From Diplonema papillatum (Eukaryota > Euglenozoa > Diplonemea > Diplonemida > Diplonemidae): a DNA stretch of 64,000 nt. Position 1 is the stretch's first letter; each line of letters begins with the position of its first letter. The stretch lies in assembly GCA_030068145.1 (NCBI GenBank), contig JAPJBO010000344.1:45001-109000 (forward strand). Direction: 5' to 3'. This document shows positions 10,797 through 18,671 of this stretch, one piece after another. Below the pieces are notes generated by a model that was not told the origin of the DNA, did not search any database, and worked only from the letters and a program-made list of their open reading frames with translations. The position numbers and the translations under genes were made by a program.

Positions 10797-13700
10797 CTAC
10801 TGTTCGCTGCTGTTGTCCTTGGCCTTGTTTTGCTGCCAGTAGGCACGGTTTTGCTCAACCTGTTTCACCACGTGAGAAAGAGACGGCAGGAGGTTGTTGA
10901 CGACGTCTTCAAACATCGGCAGGACGATGTAGCTCATGAACGAGATCTGCCCCAGCGGGAAGTCGGTTTGGTGCTTCCGACGGCTCATGAACGGCGAAGC
11001 TGGGAGGTCAAGCCGGTGTTCGTAGTCACCTTGGTTGTAAAACTCCTCGGCGATACGATCAGCCCATCGCATGTACAAGTCGTGTGGGCGGCTGCAATTG
11101 CTGATGTCGGCCATCTGCGATTTTTTTTTTAAAGTGAAAGTTCGCTTGAAATCAGGGGACTTTAGCACTTTGTCTGACCGAGCAAAAAAGCCGGTTTCAG
11201 CCAAAACCCCGGTTTTGGGGCTCTGCGGTGCCTGTGGGTGTCTGAGTGCCTGGACCCGTCGCCCCGCGCACGCAAACAAGTGGACGGAGGGGGGTGGTGA
11301 ATGTTTTCGGAGGTCTACAAGTCCGGTGACTCGTGTTGGCTGACAGCACATTTTCCTCCTTTGAGTTTTTGCAACTGGCAGCCTCCTCGATTTTCCACAA
11401 CGCAGGTGCCCATCAAAAATACTCGAGGGACAGCCCTGCTGCTTATTTCGGAGGCTGGAGTTGAGTCTCCGGTTGACCATTGAGACTGGGAATCGGGTTT
11501 GGGGTGTAGATATCTCTTCGCACGCTTTGGGGTGTGGCTAATGTGTCCGACACCAGTTCAGTTCACGTTCGCGAAGAATGCAGCCTTGGACCCCCCCTAC
11601 TTGTATCGTCAACCCCTTGCCAACACTGCAGGCAAAGGACTCTGATGGTGCTGCTTGGCGTGGCTCTCACGCTACCGGTGTATAGTGAGCATACAGTCAC
11701 CACTACCTCCACCTCACCCGCACTGGAAAGGGTGTAGGTCCGTATGCGTGGGTAAGATGTACACGTGTGGTGTAGGGACTTCAGCATCGGATGAGCTGAA
11801 CAACTGTATTGTAGAACGACATACCTTGATGGCCATGACCATGGCGTTCTTCACGTCGTCCCTTCTGCTGTGCCAGTCCGGGCTCTCTTGATATCGGCGA
11901 CGGAAAGCAATCATGATCTTGCTGTGGTTGCCCATGTCGGTGCAGAGCAGCAGCTCGATGACGGTATCCCGGACTTCTTTCCGCTGATCTTCAGACAGCG
12001 GAGCGAGGATGTTGTATTTTGCATGCCGCATCAACTCGAACACGCACGCGCAGTGATGGTTTTCGAGGATGGACCTGTCGGGTTAGTTTTGCTCGTGCCG
12101 TGTTGCTATTTTTTTGTATCAGCACCTGCTTTGTAGGAAATACTTGAGGAGGCTGCCAGCTGCAAAAGATCAAAGGAGGTAAATGTGCTGTAGCCTACAC
12201 GAAACACAGGTGAAACTGGGTTCAGTGGCTGGCGTAAGCGTTCAACAAAAAAGACCACTTTGTAGTTGTATTGTTTTCCCCCCCTCTAGCCTGGTAACCG
12301 CAGCTCCAATCGTCTTGTTGACATCCTCGAGCGTCCGTCTCAATGAACCAAGAGTCGGTGTCGGCGGAAAAGACCGTTGCAAGGTGGCTGACTATCTTGC
12401 TTCCGCAAAAGTCAGAAAGCGAGCAAGATACAACGCATCTTCGGAGCGACCGGTCGGTTGTTACAAGCATCCAGTGCCAACCACGAGTTCCTGACACGCT
12501 AGTGTTTACGAAGGTGTTCATTAGGCGGGCACGCGTCAGTGATGACAGGGTAAGCCGGTCGTATGGAAGGGCAGCGCAAGCAAAGGCGGAGTTGTCCTTA
12601 AAGAAGGAGTAAAGCCTCTCCAGGTGATTGCCATCCAGCTTCTTCTCGTGCTCGCCAGCCCCAAGACTAGCATGAACCGCATCCACCTCCACAGCAACGC
12701 ATTCATCGTTTGCCAGTTCTTCAAGCTCTTGGTCAAAATCAGCGAAGTCAGAATCGTTGATGCAATCTGCGCATTCACTCAGTACGAGACATTCATTGAA
12801 ATTGCGAAGGAGTTCGGCGAGAACGTTGTCCCCGCAACCGGTGGCCTGGGGGCTGTCTTCAACGAAACCTTGGTCGGCTCCATCTCCTGTTGGATCGGAA
12901 ACTTTCTCTTCCAGTAAATTTGCGTCACTCAACCCGGTCACCACGAAACTCGCCCGGATGCTCTCGGGTTTCACTTTCGACAACGCCGTCTTTAGCCACT
13001 TCAGATGTCGTCTACGCAGAGATTTTGCGCGGAGGTCGAGACGCGCCATCATCTTCAGCATCTCACCTTCCACAACAGACGTGTGTTCTTCAGCAGACAC
13101 GGTGACAAGGGAAGCAAAATGAGCCCCGTCGAACAAGACAACCAGTGAGCTTTGCCGGCACCCGGACTTCAAGTGTTCAGCAGCAGAGAAGGTGCACGTT
13201 TCGTGCAAGCGCACTTTCACCCCAAATAGACGCAGCACTACTTCATTGAGAACGAGCGCGACTAATACATCAAGATGATGTTTTTCTTCAAATTCAGACG
13301 ACGCGGGGGTCTTCGCAAATTCGGCTATCAATTCTACAATTGTCGCACGAGTCCTTGTGACGTTGGTGTCGCTTAATGCAGCGAGATCGGCTTCTGTGCA
13401 CTTGCTGAGCAGTTGCTTAGCTGTTTCATGCGTTGGTTTATCGCTGGCCTCCTGAACGCACTTTCCGCTGGCAGCCAGCCAGATGCTTTGATAGGCGAAC
13501 CACCCACAAGCGTGCGCCTCTTGCTGTCTCCACCATTCCGGAGCGAAGTGCAGGTCGCCAGCTGCCCCTGCTGCTTCGGACAACGAGACCGTCATACTGC
13601 TACGCTCCCCGAGACTGTCGTAGAGGATGACACTGTGCTTCGTCTTTGAGTGCGCGACTTCACGAAAGAGCACGGGTGTGGGGACAACGGATACACTTTG

Positions 13701-16700
13701 AAGACGTTGGATGTCCTCAGCAGCGTCACCGTCGTTAACACTCTCCACGTCTTTTGTAGCCTTCTTATGCTTCTTGTCTTTCTTGTATTTTTTGTTCTTC
13801 ATCAGGTTCTTCGCGTTCTTTGCATTTGCTTGTTTCATCAACTTGAGCACACTGTCGCTGTACCAAGTTGAGTACTCGTCCCGCAAGCTCCGCTTCAGAA
13901 CACCGTTTAGACCAACATCCAACGGCTGCAACCTTCCTGTCCAGCCAGCCGGAATGCAGACTGTTGCGATGCGATTGTGCACAAGTAGTTCCTTGATACT
14001 TTGTGTGTGCTGGGCAGAGAAACGATCGAGGATAAGGAGGCCCCACTCTGTCTCTCCTCTCCGTGTGTTCATCGCCGGCAGCAGCACGTCATTTACCCAC
14101 ACCTTCGTGGTTTGTTCGTTTGCCCATCTGTTAGGATTGGCGACAAAAGACCACCCGTCTGGTCTTTTTGCCTCCGGTGGAAGAACCCTGCTGGTTTTCC
14201 CGCCGTAGATCAACTGCGGGGGTAGCAGCTCCCCTGTTGCAAAGGCCGCAAACAGACCTGTGATCGACCGTTTGTCGTTCAGGTTTGTTAGGGCCACTCG
14301 CTTGCTGCCCACCGGCGCGTAGGTCTTCTTGGGTGCTGGCAGGAGTTGCAACAGTGTGTGGTCGGCGTTTACTACCCTTTCTAAGGGGATGTCGTGGAGC
14401 TTCCTTGCACTCTGTACTTCTGCAACGAATTCTGCACGAGCTTCCAGGAAGGGTCGCGTTGTGGTGGCCACTGCTGTTGTTGCAGCTCTCATGGACCAGC
14501 CCAACCGTCGCATCCATGCACGCGCCCACTCCTTGTTCAGCGTGGTGGCGTCGTGAATGCGCTCGCTTTCATCACTAGCTTTCACCATGCCTCTAGCTGT
14601 TGCTGACACGGTTTGTGCCGTCACAGCGCCACCTGATGACCTAGCAGAGCGGATGATGCTGAGCACCTTGTTTTCTTCTGTGGGTGACAGTGTGCACTTC
14701 CTCCCTCGTTTGACTTCCCGGAAATGGCTCTCGCTTTCCTCAACATGCAGCCCCATCTTCCGCTTTGCTACGCGCTCTTGTATTGCTTCTTTGTATTCGG
14801 AAAAGGCTCGAGACGCCATGGTTTGGTTGAGCTGTTTCGTATGTCCTTGGAGAGGACTGTTCCACCACTTGACAGTGTCTCGCACCCCCTTTTCTGCAAC
14901 AATCTCAGCAATGCGTTCTTTCTCGTCAGCGTTCCACGTCGCTCTCGTTGTTTTCTTTGTCGGCAACTCCTTCGCGACTTCCTTTGCAACCGCATCACCT
15001 GCTACCTGTTGTGCTGAGCGGGCAAAGATTGTCGAATCTGCTTCGCATGGGGTGAAGGGCTGACGCGGGCGAAGAAATCGGTGCATTTTTTTGACTGGTT
15101 CAAATTTTCTGTCAATTTTCCTGCATCCTTTTTTTTATTGTCGAGCCCCAGTTTACCCTAAGTACAAACCCCTTCAAAACCCCTATGGAAGTGCAGTTTT
15201 TAATACGAAACGTGTTAATGTTTCATAGCTTCAGATCCGGGGTGTTTCTTAATTAACACGTTTCGTATTAAAACCGTTTCGTACTATACACGTTTCATAT
15301 TAAACCCGCTTACGGTAAGCACAAGGCAGTCCCTCGAGTATTTTACATAAGCGCCAGCTTGGAAGAAAATGCTCGACAATAGCTGCCAGACAAAGAACCG
15401 AAGGGATCCCAAGTGCAGTAACTACCGAACCACGTGTTGAACGGACGTGAGGTCATGCGACAAATCACACAAACGCAACAGGTCACAGCCCTGAGTGAGA
15501 GAGCAACACACGGTGGTGTAAGCGAACAAATCAGATTGTGTTTGTAATGTATTTGCCCCTCTACCTCTATATTTCCTCTCTTCCATTCGGAGTCAAAGCA
15601 GCTGCGTCGAGTATTTTCGGGCGGGGGTGTAGTGTTTCGGCGGGAACTCCTGTCCCCCATGGCCGGGTGCTATTTTGAGTGAACGTATGCTTGAGGATCC
15701 GGGGTTATAGAGTCTCCTTTCTTAATGGTATCGCATACTCTCATTCATATCGAGCATAACATAGGCTCGGACCTGGTTCTCTGGAGGGAACAGGGGCCGT
15801 TGTTATTGGTGCTGGTTTTGAAGAAAAGGTAAGAAATGTTTTTGCGGTGGTCTCCGCTGGTCTGGTAGTGTGCTACCGCCAGCTATTTTAGAGCGCAAGT
15901 TCACTTAGGGACCCGGGGTTTTATAGTCTCCGGGTGTCCATTGTCGTAAATGTTCATTTAAGCTCTAGTGTGCGTATCGTATCTGCTGTGGTGGCAGTAC
16001 GTGTACTTGTACGTGTGTCTTAGTTGCCTATTGCCGACTATTCGACTTATAGCGCGCTCCTATTTCCTATGTGTCTTGCCATTTCCATGGCTCTTGCGAC
16101 CGACACCGAGTTCACGTTCGCGAGGAAAGCGATCTCGGGCCCCACGTGCATACCTTTTTTACACTCGTTCCTTCTCTACTCACTTCTGTACGTACTCTTT
16201 CGCGGGGGGAACAGGGGCCGTTGTTATTGGTGCTGGTTTTGAGGGATAAGGAAACATTAGAGATCTTTTTGCGGTCGTCTCCGCTGGCCCGGTAGTTTGT
16301 GCTACCGCCAACTTCTTTTACACTCGTTCTCTTCTCTACTCACTACTGTTCGTACTCTTTCACTCTTTTTCTCACTTTGGCTTGCCAAAAAAAAGGGGAA
16401 ACTCCTGCGACCGACACCACGAACACGGGGAACAGGGGCGGGGTTTGTCACGCCTTAGCAGCGTCGCGTGGATGTGTTCTCGTTGTCATCGCTTTCGCGC
16501 TGGCTTTCCGAGAGAGAGAGAGAGAGAGAGAGAACACATAAACCAAGTGTTGTCACGCCTTAGCAGTCCAGGGCCTCTCCCCTCCCACCTATATGTGGTC
16601 TCCTTGTCATCGCTACCGCGCTGAGAGAGAGAGAGAGAGTTAGAGCGAAGAGACGAGCAGACCTGTCGTTGTAAAGGACACCGAGGTACGCCTGCGTCTT

Positions 16701-18671
16701 TGTGTGAAAGTTGTTGTTGAAGCCAGGATGGTCGTAGTCGTGGATGCCCGCCGCTAGGAGGCAGGCGAACTCGTCTTCCTTCTTCATGCGGATCAAGCTG
16801 CGCATCTTTCCTCTGTCCATGATATAGTGCGTGCACTGCATCACGTCCGCGGCGTGCGTCGCATTGTGGTAAGGGTTGGGGTGATAGCCGGCGGTCACTG
16901 CGACCCAGAAGTTCTTCACCACCTCCGGATCGAGGTTAAATGCGTTCACCAGATCGTACTTGTACGTCAAAGCCCACGCCGTGTATACGAGAGCGCCTGT
17001 CCAAAGGTTGAGACTATTTGTAGCGTTTTTGAAAGTAATACCAATGCTAAATACTGCAGGGAATAGTTGACCTCTTGAGTTTGTGCTAACCCCGATTTGG
17101 GGAGTCGGGAGAACCTACAAACCAAAAAGAATAGGCGTGTGTTTGTTTGTACGTGCCGGGGGAGGATTAGCCTGCTAGTGGATGATAGTGAGTGAATATG
17201 CTCGTTAGGCTACTCTTCTCCCAAACACGCTGTTAGCGTTCTGTTTTGTGTTTACAATGCATTGTTACTACGAAAACAGGACCGACCCCACCCGCCCCCG
17301 TTCGTGAGAAAAAGCGAAGAATAAAAACGCCTTTTCCATCTGTCTTTGTGTCAAGAGCTGCGACTCAACTGTTCTTTACACAAGCGCTAACGTGTACGGG
17401 CCGGTGTTTTTCGACGCGCGTTTCCGGCGGTATCCTTCCCTTTGGGTGTGTTCTGCCGCCAATCCGCTTTCCTTTCCTTTTTTCCCTTCCACCAAAAAAA
17501 AGCGCGCTAACAGTGTGAGTACAGTACCTCCATTCGTCATCTTGTCGAGAAGAAACGGGTCGAAGTTGTGCTCGTCGACGGCGTCGATGCACTGCAGGAT
17601 GGTCTCTATGTCGTTGTACAGCGGCTTTTTTCCTTTCAACGAAGCGGCCACGTCGGTGATGGGCGGCCTAGGCGGCCCATCCAGCGCGTTTTCGTGCGCT
17701 TTGACGAGCAGCTGCAGGAGAGACGGGCAGGTCTGTATGTACACAGGCTCGTGCTCCTTCGCCCAAAAGGCGTGCTGGAAAGGCCGAGCGCCACCGTCGT
17801 TGTACAAGGCGTCGAGGTGGTGCGTACCCTTTTCGACGCTGCGGTGCTTGATGGCGCGGAGCACTTGCTTTTCGAGCCCCGCGAGCTCGCCCTTCTCTTG
17901 GTTGACCTCCCGCAGCTCGGCGCGGAGGACTTCGACGCCCGGCCGCAGGGCTTCTATCTTCCCTTCGGTCTCCTCGACGAGAGACTCGCTCTCGTTGATG
18001 ACCGGCTCCGCCGCTTCAGCGGCGGCTTCTTGCCGCGTCCGGTCGGTCTTGCGCTTCGTGTACGACTCGAGAAACGGCAAGAAATAGCACGTGTACGTGA
18101 TCGACGGGTCCGCCCCGCAGTTCGCGAGCTCCGTCGGGAGCAGGTGCCGATCCTCTCGGGTGACCCCCCTGATGGAGATGTCGAGCCGGCGTTTGTTCCC
18201 CGGGATTGCGATGGACCGCGGGGGGTCGCGCAGCGTGTTCGTGAACGCCGCGGTGAGGTACTTCCAGAACACCGGCCACGGTAGGCCGGACGCGGATTTG
18301 TTCTTCCACAGCACGACTTCCTCCTCGTCCATGGTCCGCATCCACACCGTTCCCGTCAGCGCGTCCCTGCACGCGAAGGTCAACCCGTCGAGCTTCGGCG
18401 TGTTGCAATACACCGCAAGTTGATAAACCTTCCCGTCCTGATTCGACTCGCGCAGGATCGGATGCCCCAAGTACTTCTCCTTCCCCGTCGACGCAGTCGC
18501 CCCGCTGCCGTTGACCTCGCGGCGGGTCCCATTCGGCGCGCCGCCCGCGACAACATGGCTCCCGTTCGTGTTCACGCTGCCGTTAAGCTCGCCGGCCCCG
18601 TGCCCCGGCCCGCTCTTCGTCGTGGTGCCCCCTGTCGGCTGGCGCAGCGAGTGGCTGACTCCGCAACCCAT
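10797..18671 (-). CDS. Class I cyclic-nucleotide phosphodiesterase, 4 exons, 681 aa
   Basis: Exons (minus strand): 18671-17528, 16996-16663, 12074-11825 and 11114-10797. Every junction is GT-AG and the phases agree (1, 2, 0). The catalytic domain (about 355-660) has NPYHN (proton-donor His425), metal ligands His429, His467 and Asp468 in the HDxxHxxxxN signature, TDMxxH, and the late metal Asp579 in MADISN. It also has the nucleotide-clamp pair Gln632 and Phe635, so it should hydrolyse cAMP and/or cGMP; specificity cannot be read. The start MGCGVS fits N-myristoylation plus palmitoylation, hence membrane attachment. Residues about 65-205 form an unassigned, probably beta-rich region and about 210-275 a coiled coil. 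The start codon has a good context (GCGATGG). Intron 2 holds a transposase ORF. Catalytic call very sure; exon ends read by eye. Confidence 0.93.
11115..11824 (-). other. Phosphodiesterase intron 3, built of dispersed repeats
   Basis: The donor is AAG|GTATGT and the acceptor TCGCAG|ATGG. The end near the acceptor (about 11124-11165) is a dispersed repeat, 'aaagttcgcttgaaa', seen also at 49483-49540, 50281-50340 and 54668-54745. It is followed by CAGGGGACTTTA, the terminus of the hAT-like family. About 11345-11455 is a copy of the CTCGAGGG repeat. Confidence 0.8.
12222..15086 (-). CDS. Pogo/Tigger-like DDE transposase with two cysteine-protease-like modules, 954 aa
   Basis: Residues about 45-205 hold helix-turn-helix DNA-binding regions ending in a CENP-B-like WMRRLGWSMR. 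The DDE core has Asp242 (VVNADHTLL), Asp354 (LLILDRFSAQH) and Asp390 (GRLQPLDVGLN), so it would cut and join transposon DNA. A lysine-rich linker (about 415-445) follows. Next is a possible OTU-like cysteine protease: Cys527 (ACGWFA), an LFGVKVRLHE-like strand and His656 (GAHFASL). The C-terminus is Ulp1/C48-like: His871 (HWMLV), Gln923 and Cys929 (QQDDWSCG), but the usual acidic residue after the His appears to be Cys. About the last 22 residues are read from a flanking repeat, so the last module is probably cut short. Same strand as the host gene, inside its intron 2. DDE call firm; protease calls by eye. Confidence 0.85.
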   Translation of the reverse strand: MHRFLRPRQPFTPCEADSTIFARSAQQVAGDAVAKEVAKELPTKKTTRATWNADEKERIAEIVAEKGVRDTVKWWNSPLQGHTKQLNQTMASRAFSEYKEAIQERVAKRKMGLHVEESESHFREVKRGRKCTLSPTEENKVLSIIRSARSSGGAVTAQTVSATARGMVKASDESERIHDATTLNKEWARAWMRRLGWSMRAATTAVATTTRPFLEARAEFVAEVQSARKLHDIPLERVVNADHTLLQLLPAPKKTYAPVGSKRVALTNLNDKRSITGLFAAFATGELLPPQLIYGGKTSRVLPPEAKRPDGWSFVANPNRWANEQTTKVWVNDVLLPAMNTRRGETEWGLLILDRFSAQHTQSIKELLVHNRIATVCIPAGWTGRLQPLDVGLNGVLKRSLRDEYSTWYSDSVLKLMKQANAKNAKNLMKNKKYKKDKKHKKATKDVESVNDGDAAEDIQRLQSVSVVPTPVLFREVAHSKTKHSVILYDSLGERSSMTVSLSEAAGAAGDLHFAPEWWRQQEAHACGWFAYQSIWLAASGKCVQEASDKPTHETAKQLLSKCTEADLAALSDTNVTRTRATIVELIAEFAKTPASSEFEEKHHLDVLVALVLNEVVLRLFGVKVRLHETCTFSAAEHLKSGCRQSSLVVLFDGAHFASLVTVSAEEHTSVVEGEMLKMMARLDLRAKSLRRRHLKWLKTALSKVKPESIRASFVVTGLSDANLLEEKVSDPTGDGADQGFVEDSPQATGCGDNVLAELLRNFNECLVLSECADCINDSDFADFDQELEELANDECVAVEVDAVHASLGAGEHEKKLDGNHLERLYSFFKDNSAFACAALPYDRLTLSSLTRARLMNTFVNTSVSGTRGWHWMLVTTDRSLRRCVVSCSLSDFCGSKIVSHLATVFSADTDSWFIETDARGCQQDDWSCGYQARGGENNTTTKWSFLLNAYASH
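12290..15313 (-). mobile_element. Transposon inserted in phosphodiesterase intron 2
   Basis: The limits come from a dispersed repeat (complete at 3528-3733) that is interrupted here: one half ends near 12290 and the other resumes near 15313, with about 10 bases of the repeat missing between them. I found no convincing terminal inverted repeats, so the end near 12290 may be a deletion. A 22-bp perfect inverted repeat sits near the other end (15198-15273). Confidence 0.65.
15198..15273. repeat. Perfect 22-bp hairpin upstream of the transposase ORF
   Basis: Arms 15198-15219 and 15252-15273 are exact complements (core 'aatacgaaacgtgttaat') around a 32-base loop. A weaker third copy of the arm follows near 15289-15304. 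It lies about 110 bp upstream of the transposase start and could be a transposase-binding or promoter element; that is inference. Confidence 0.7.
15346..15632 (-). repeat. Dispersed repeat, inverted copy in intron 2
   Basis: This is the reverse complement of 6998-7292, with a third partial copy at 49985-50170. Similarity ends near 15346, where the CTCGAGGG repeat begins. Confidence 0.75.
15787..16311 (+). repeat. Two copies of the 'GTTATTGGTGCTGG' dispersed repeat
   Basis: 15787-15893 and 16203-16311 share 'ggccgttgttattggtgct', 'ttttgcggt' and 'gtctccgctgg'. Other copies are at 18797-18850 (upstream of the phosphodiesterase start) and 54755-54851 (kinesin intron). Confidence 0.75.
16997..17527 (-). 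other. Phosphodiesterase intron 1, mostly a dispersed repeat
   Basis: The donor is GGAG|GTACTG and the acceptor TTTGGACAG|GC. Bases 17033-17372 are the reverse complement of the repeat at 4066-4235 and 40571-40879, with a second repeat ('ggcgtgtgtttgtttgtac', also near 2905 and 5250) nested in it. Little intron sequence is left outside repeats. Confidence 0.8.

Follow-up and report, generated by a model that had tools for sequence, protein, structure and literature searches.

A pogo-type transposon of Diplonema papillatum whose single protein carries two added protease-like modules

Results

The DNA analysed here, called the window throughout, is a stretch of 64,000 nucleotides of the Diplonema papillatum genome (GenBank assembly GCA_030068145.1, contig JAPJBO010000344.1, positions 45,001 to 109,000 of the forward strand). 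On its minus strand, which holds all features of the element described below, lies an open frame of 954 codons (12222..15086), in which an earlier note made from the letters alone had seen a DDE transposase fused to OTU-like and Ulp1-like cysteine-protease modules. The frame proved to be real, its protein having at least 49 matches of 94-100% identity in the 271-Mb genome of the same organism; this is a lower bound, as 48 of 1299 first-look candidates were scored, and a few of the matches are pieces of one copy. Comparison by blastn with L002, a complete copy representing the window's family, gave 99.93% identity over 3026 bp and delimits a truncated pogo-type element (12292..15317), which has its 5' end with the terminal repeat at 15317 and has lost its 3' end at 12292. 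Homology to complete copies stops at the latter position, and the codons from about 932 on (the last 23) are unrelated DNA. The transposase is thus codons 1-931, and the 3' part of the frame (12222..12291) is foreign, a read-through beyond the break. Complete copies encode a protein of 970 amino acids, which reads on ...WSCGYHSLFAALQF... where the window frame turns foreign; the complete protein cannot be made from the window copy.

To define the family, 30 loci were compared, the window's own among them; these are the best-scoring ones, a choice which favours intact copies. The element ends are TACCGTAAGCGGGTTTAATA...TATTAAACCCGCTTACGGTA, with TA on both sides. Both ends were located by script in 23 of the 30 loci, with a TA at each end and an element length of 3325-3372 bp, most commonly 3370 bp; the window copy has the 5' end only. 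Its 5' terminal inverted repeat, TACCGTAAGCGGGTTTAATATGAAACGTGT with the target TA included (15288..15317), follows from the compared flanks and from a genome-wide count of the 30-bp end pattern, which occurs 335 times (162 + 173) with up to three mismatches, while the backwards control gave 0. An empty site was also found: the joined flanks of a further copy, L014, match L002:39-154 at 93%, with one TA at the junction. The motifs around C527, H656 and H871, as well as SCSL, are kept in all 30 loci, and the complete WSCGYHSL motif in 29, the exception being the window copy. We conclude that the window element is a copy of a TA-inserting, pogo-type cut-and-paste transposon whose one protein contains two added protease-like modules. 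The earlier view of a pogo-type transposase with two further modules in a single frame is hereby borne out, the same order recurring in other copies.

Tandem 16-bp units, GTTTCGTATTAAAACC, adjoin the 5' end of the element (window 15244-15307) and are possible transposase binding sites. L070 and L071 are shorter derivatives that lack a long frame; their ends are of the same kind, with T at position 8. L071 consists of the 3' end in fold-back form, 950 bp long with two arms 95% alike. A piece of the element's DDE domain (approximately residues 300-430) lies inside a long open frame of 2096 amino acids elsewhere (L065:1-2636, C1033) and is perhaps an exonised or captured fragment. L066 (C743) and L067 (C1316, one of five places of this kind) looked like further families but proved to be fragments of the window's family.

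In the window protein DDE_1 is the sole significant Pfam match (61.3 bits against a cut-off of 22; E 1.2e-16), marking the first part of the catalytic core (residues 235-425; 13812..14384). The triad D242, D354 and D390, correctly placed in the earlier note, is invariant in all five families aligned below, with 35 residues between the last two (DD35D). Other Pfam matches are at chance level (T6SS_FHA_C, E 0.044; MOSC, E 0.14 when the C-terminal half was scanned alone), as are all matches in PHROGs and NCBIfam. A CENP-B-type DNA-binding region, which had been claimed for the N-terminus, was not confirmed: neither CENP-B nor any helix-turn-helix (HTH) family was matched by Pfam at E up to 10. 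Related families show sub-threshold HTH matches (HTH_Tnp_Tc5 in L062, E 0.0049, and in L064, E 0.017; HTH_32 in L035, E 0.07). A region at the N-terminus that the family alignment shows to be conserved (residues about 45-215; 14442..14954) is presumed to bind DNA.

A search of the genome with DDE_1, in which 150 matches were scored out of 175 candidates, returned several families including the window's, and five others were compared through one representative each (L035, L061, L062, L063 and L064). L062 belongs to a more distant DDE_1 family. Alignment of L002 with the remaining four revealed that the first module (residues about 470-676; 13059..13679) sits as an insertion behind the region of the third Asp, D390, and ahead of a transposase tail common to all five, SLRRRHLKWLK...IRASF (residues 680-722; 12921..13049). 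It is present in L002 and L063 and absent from L035, L061 and L064. The notion that both modules follow the transposase core must therefore be amended, as the first lies inside the transposase domain. Neither does the transposase of the relatives end before residue 450: those without the first module continue into the tail and, in two of three cases (L035 and L061), into the second, C-terminal module (residues 815-933 in the truncated window copy; 12288..12644). L063 has the transposase and the first module, and its frame, of the same length in three copies, stops before any C-terminal module; none was seen by eye in any of the three forward frames as far as the terminal repeat. L064 carries neither module and has a Cys-rich C-terminus instead.

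The modules also find each other across families. A genome search with the first module of L063 retrieved the window's family at E 1e-33 and 39% identity, and one with the C-terminal module of L061 led to the families of L035 (E 1e-11) and of the window (E 1e-5; 7e-4 for the truncated window copy itself). Between families, the proportion of synonymous differences (pS) amounts to 0.73-0.84 and that of nonsynonymous differences (pN) to 0.33-0.55 in four large regions. For the first module pN is 0.454 against a pS of 0.791, and for three pairs of the C-terminal module pN is 0.446, 0.545 and 0.506 against a pS of 0.776, 0.735 and 0.779. Both modules appear to be under purifying selection, the contrast of pN and pS being consistent with constraint. 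In a tree rebuilt without L062, which had caused long-branch trouble in a first version, L002 and L063 group together at 100/100; L035 and L061 are not securely placed: one tree gives them 85/88, the other leaves them open.

Among the relatives, the Cys-rich end of L064 (L064:910-1200) has sub-threshold IBR and B-box matches hinting at a ubiquitin-ligase-like zinc module. L062 has another Cys...FDSH region at its N-terminus (L062:2832-3401, C178), with an Asp-x-His motif reminiscent of the Helitron VTD deubiquitinases (herpes tegument-like); phmmer of this region against the PDB gave nothing. Pattern-based scans of viral contigs, which have limited reach, found no relative of the protein or of the alignments A1, A2 (C-terminal module) and A3 (first module). 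Prokaryote contigs yielded one relative, L069, a eukaryotic-looking pogo transposase of 599 amino acids that has neither module. Its contig was binned as a Dehalococcoidales metagenome-assembled genome and is probably eukaryotic contamination.

The protease-like motifs which the earlier note had pointed out are all present. In the first module they comprise ILYDSLG from residue 487 (with D490), RQQEAHACGWF (with Q521/Q522 and C527) and GAHFASLV (with H656), and C527 followed C-terminally by H656 is conserved in both the window's family and L063. A profile of these two families, searched against all PDB sequences, has OTUD7B as its best match (E 0.036), through a 30-residue stretch around H656 that aligns GCRQSSLVVLFDGAHFASLVTV to OTUD7B and contains what we take to be its catalytic His; the profile with reversed letters matched nothing. 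OTUD7B is an A20-type OTU. Searches of the PDB by phmmer with single proteins gave no protease.

The motifs of the second module are GWHW (with H871) and QQDDWSCG at residues 923-930 (with Q923 and C929). At the place of the acid residue, L061 and L035 have Asp (WDSL and RDPL) and the window's family has Cys (SCSL, C888). Thus the clan CE order His - Asp/Glu/Asn - Gln - Cys is complete in L061 and L035 and broken in the window's family. A profile of the three families (alignment A2) has adenain as its best PDB match, at E 0.0018 for the whole sequence, and the match spans VNT..G.HW and the acid and Cys places. XopD, a clan CE protease, follows at E 1.6 among unrelated proteins that set in from E 0.5 on, there is no Ulp1 or SENP at E up to 10, and the best match of the reversed-letter profile is at E 2. 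Genome-wide, PF02902 (Pfam C48) has five matches, none in these elements, and PF00770 (Pfam C5) has none; the control genomes gave no PF00770 match either.

How far single copies are intact is affected by an oddity of the assembly. For 26 copies that align over more than 3200 bp, pairwise distances average 0.0014 and reach at most 0.0036, and all 56 substituted columns fall in the first 343 or last 361 of 3330 aligned bases. The inner 2.6 kb, element positions 344-2969, has zero substitutions across all 26 copies, L002 included. Four synonymous and nine nonsynonymous changes occur among them, giving no sign of constraint. The substitution-free interior is probably an assembly artefact, produced by collapsing repeats or filling gaps, or else reflects an unexplained homogenisation. 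Filling of repeat gaps from short reads would leave just this picture, so that the data do not independently show any one copy to be intact; since all substitutions are confined to the outer parts of the element, near-identity inside the frame was rejected as evidence. Against a wholly artificial interior speak L029, a copy outside the 26 that lacks about 40 bp inside the frame, and copies outside the 30 compared loci that carry stops, e.g. C38 and C240. In sum, the family sequence is firm and the intactness of individual copies is not; judged by its ends alone, the family would be young.

The element sits between two exons of a host cyclic nucleotide phosphodiesterase on the same strand (16563..16970, PDEase_I E 1.9e-23; 11717..12043, E 2.9e-11), which presumably are spliced to each other. 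Altogether three phosphodiesterase exons match PDEase_I, at profile positions 1-69, 80-157 and 154-238, the first two being those on either side of the element. Inverted repeats of 46 nucleotides, 91% complementary (window 11343-11388 and 12146-12191), flank a phosphodiesterase exon.

Discussion

To account for these data we propose a young pogo-type element with added OTU-like and clan-CE-like modules, of which the OTU-like one would be taking over. We give this overall explanation an even chance, which takes into account that the adenain score sums stretches that are out of order.

Several observations weigh against it. The match to OTUD7B extends over 30 residues that leave out the Cys, has an E of 0.061 for the stretch itself, and is followed only by unrelated proteins, from ribosomal eL13 at E 0.88. 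The E of 0.0018 for adenain adds up two stretches, the second out of order, the catalytic stretch alone reaching E 0.22; when the window's family is left out, adenain is still first but at E 0.53 (two families). Searches with Pfam OTU (PF02338), up to E 10 in the window protein and up to E 5 in the related families, gave no match, and neither C48 nor C5 matches any of these proteins; at the level of Pfam, neither segment thus shows the significant OTU or C48 match whose lack the earlier note itself had held to speak against its assignments. When one of the genome's own C48 proteins was aligned by hhalign, the probability was 0.1% for the OTU-like and 0.5% for the C-terminal module, and AlphaFold, run on the OTU-like piece from one sequence, returned a predicted local distance difference test score (pLDDT) of 35. 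Moreover, pS is saturated, so that no ratio of nonsynonymous to synonymous rates can be given, and the suggested replacement of one module by the other rests on four families. The missing Pfam matches, the drop of adenain to E 0.53, the hhalign values and the AlphaFold failure are the reason why we write "OTU-like" and "clan-CE-like" and do not call the modules members of these families.

For the first module, the match of OTUD7B to the His motif weakly favours an OTU-like reading. The OTU assignment of the earlier note hence stands in so far as OTUD7B is the best match among solved structures, but not at the level of Pfam. The same note had offered the module as a Ulp1 relic, which we extend to a second clan CE protease of Ulp1 type, possibly circularly permuted, with the Asp of YDSL, the Gln six residues before the Cys in QQEAHACG and the His strand HFASLV at the C-terminal end. 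YDSL, this Gln and the CG are indeed conserved in both families, in the hhalign comparison of A3 with the C48 protein this Cys motif is all that aligns (at the probability of 0.1% given above), and the comparison of A3 with A2 also starts there, yet the latter reaches a probability of 0.2%. In addition, the PDB search with the first module gave no clan CE protein at E up to 10, and the order D-C-H is that of A20-type OTUs. We therefore consider a Ulp1 relic unlikely and the OTU-like reading the better one. In the second module the proposed Ulp1/C48 identity gives way to a clan-CE-like one: adenain is its best match, but Ulp1, SENP and Pfam C48 are all missing and, in the window's family, a Cys occupies the acid place.

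This Cys could mean that both modules are catalytically dead and act as ubiquitin- or SUMO-binding or structural parts of the transposition complex. Such a loss of activity is improbable in our view, as C527 and H656 are kept between two families with saturated synonymous sites and the C-terminal module retains H, D, Q and C in both L061 and L035. A chance or read-through frame, in which host sequence following a shorter transposase would supply the protease-like segments, agrees with the foreign last 23 codons but is refuted for residues 1-931, as both modules lie between terminal repeats in complete copies and occur, apparently under constraint, in other families, which leaves it hardly any probability at all.

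Returning to an element with two added protease-like modules, the distribution suggests a history. The C-terminal clan-CE-like module, common to three pogo families of the genome, is probably the older one. The OTU-like module would have been gained, most simply once, in the ancestor of the sister families L002 and L063, at a point beyond the third Asp and before the final conserved stretch of the transposase domain, and in the simplest history the C-terminal module was later lost in L063. The acid residue is lost in the window's family and the entire C-terminal module is missing from L063, both of which have the OTU-like module, whereas L061 and L035, which are without it, keep the Asp. On sequence grounds this suggests an exchange of one ubiquitin-type protease for another, in which the OTU-like module may have taken over the role of the C-terminal one.

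With regard to function, the OTU-like module could strip ubiquitin from the transposase or from host proteins at the insertion complex, and the element might thereby escape proteasomal removal or ubiquitin-dependent silencing. By analogy with other transposons, such self-protection is the likeliest of the conceivable roles, and we put it forward tentatively. It is possible, albeit somewhat doubtful and judged from sequence, that a catalytic RNase H-like transposase domain here hosts an active OTU deubiquitinase, coupling DNA cutting with ubiquitin removal, in a lineage that exchanges a C-terminal adenain/Ulp1-type protease for it. More generally, the combination of the two modules may help the element to evade ubiquitin-based control. 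One genome holds related families with no protease-like module, with the clan-CE-like module only, with the OTU-like module only and with both, and these four architectures provide a natural comparison for asking whether such an element needs one deubiquitinase-type activity.

With the pogo superfamily the window's family shares the DDE_1 core with DD35D, the TA target duplication, short terminal repeats (about 30 bp) and the single frame; what sets it apart is the pair of protease-like modules, of which one lies within the catalytic domain. PMC7386202 gives DD29-56D as the range of the superfamily (Tigger, pogoR, Lemi, Mover, Passer and Fot), with elements of 1.2-5.2 kb and transposases of 300-977 amino acids, so that 3.37 kb and 970 amino acids fall inside the published ranges. 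The N-terminal HTH types of the superfamily include CENP-B_N, HTH_Tnp_Tc5 and HTH_psq; Mover transposases likewise have no detectable HTH, and all of them are DD36D as against DD35D here (PMC7386202). Neither pogo survey (PMC7325037, PMC7386202) uses the words protease, peptidase or OTU in its main text, and titles and abstracts of the papers covered yielded no pogo element with either module, which is weak evidence of absence given that most subscription journals lay outside the scope.

The second module resembles adenain (family C5, clan CE) in the pattern VNT...G.HW...(D)...Q......CG and has it as its best PDB match, and differs in having no Pfam C5 match, in its fusion to a pogo transposase and in the acid residue lost in the window's family. 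Adenain-type proteases occur also in Maverick/Polinton elements.

On several occasions, unrelated transposases have acquired ubiquitin and SUMO proteases. PMC2836005 and PMC9741609 describe recurrent deubiquitinase-type domains on proteins of Ginger1, Mutator and Helitron elements, with repair or protection of transposition proteins from the proteasome proposed as roles. Ginger1 transposases carry a C-terminal OTU or Ulp1 domain, for which a part of the ubiquitin pathway in transposition was suggested, and the table in PMC2836005 lists OTU or Ulp1 per family (one NA, one Ulp1 plus PHD), never both. A protease-type domain on the transposase is what Ginger1 has in common with the present element; its core, however, is a DDE of Gypsy-integrase type. 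In Helitrons, VTD and OTU deubiquitinase domains are described, both classes being possible in one protein, and the suggested role is to keep proteins required for transposition from being degraded (PMC9741609). These elements are alike in combining two protease-type classes in one protein and different in their rolling-circle Rep/helicase, without a DDE transposase. Mutator (MULE) elements with Ulp1 are named in PMC2836005. These, too, are DNA transposons with a Ulp1-type module, but of another transposase superfamily. We know of no MULE with an OTU nested in its catalytic domain. Protease modules are thus known from Ginger, MULE and Helitron elements, and what may be new here is their presence on a pogo element, with one of them nested in the transposase domain.

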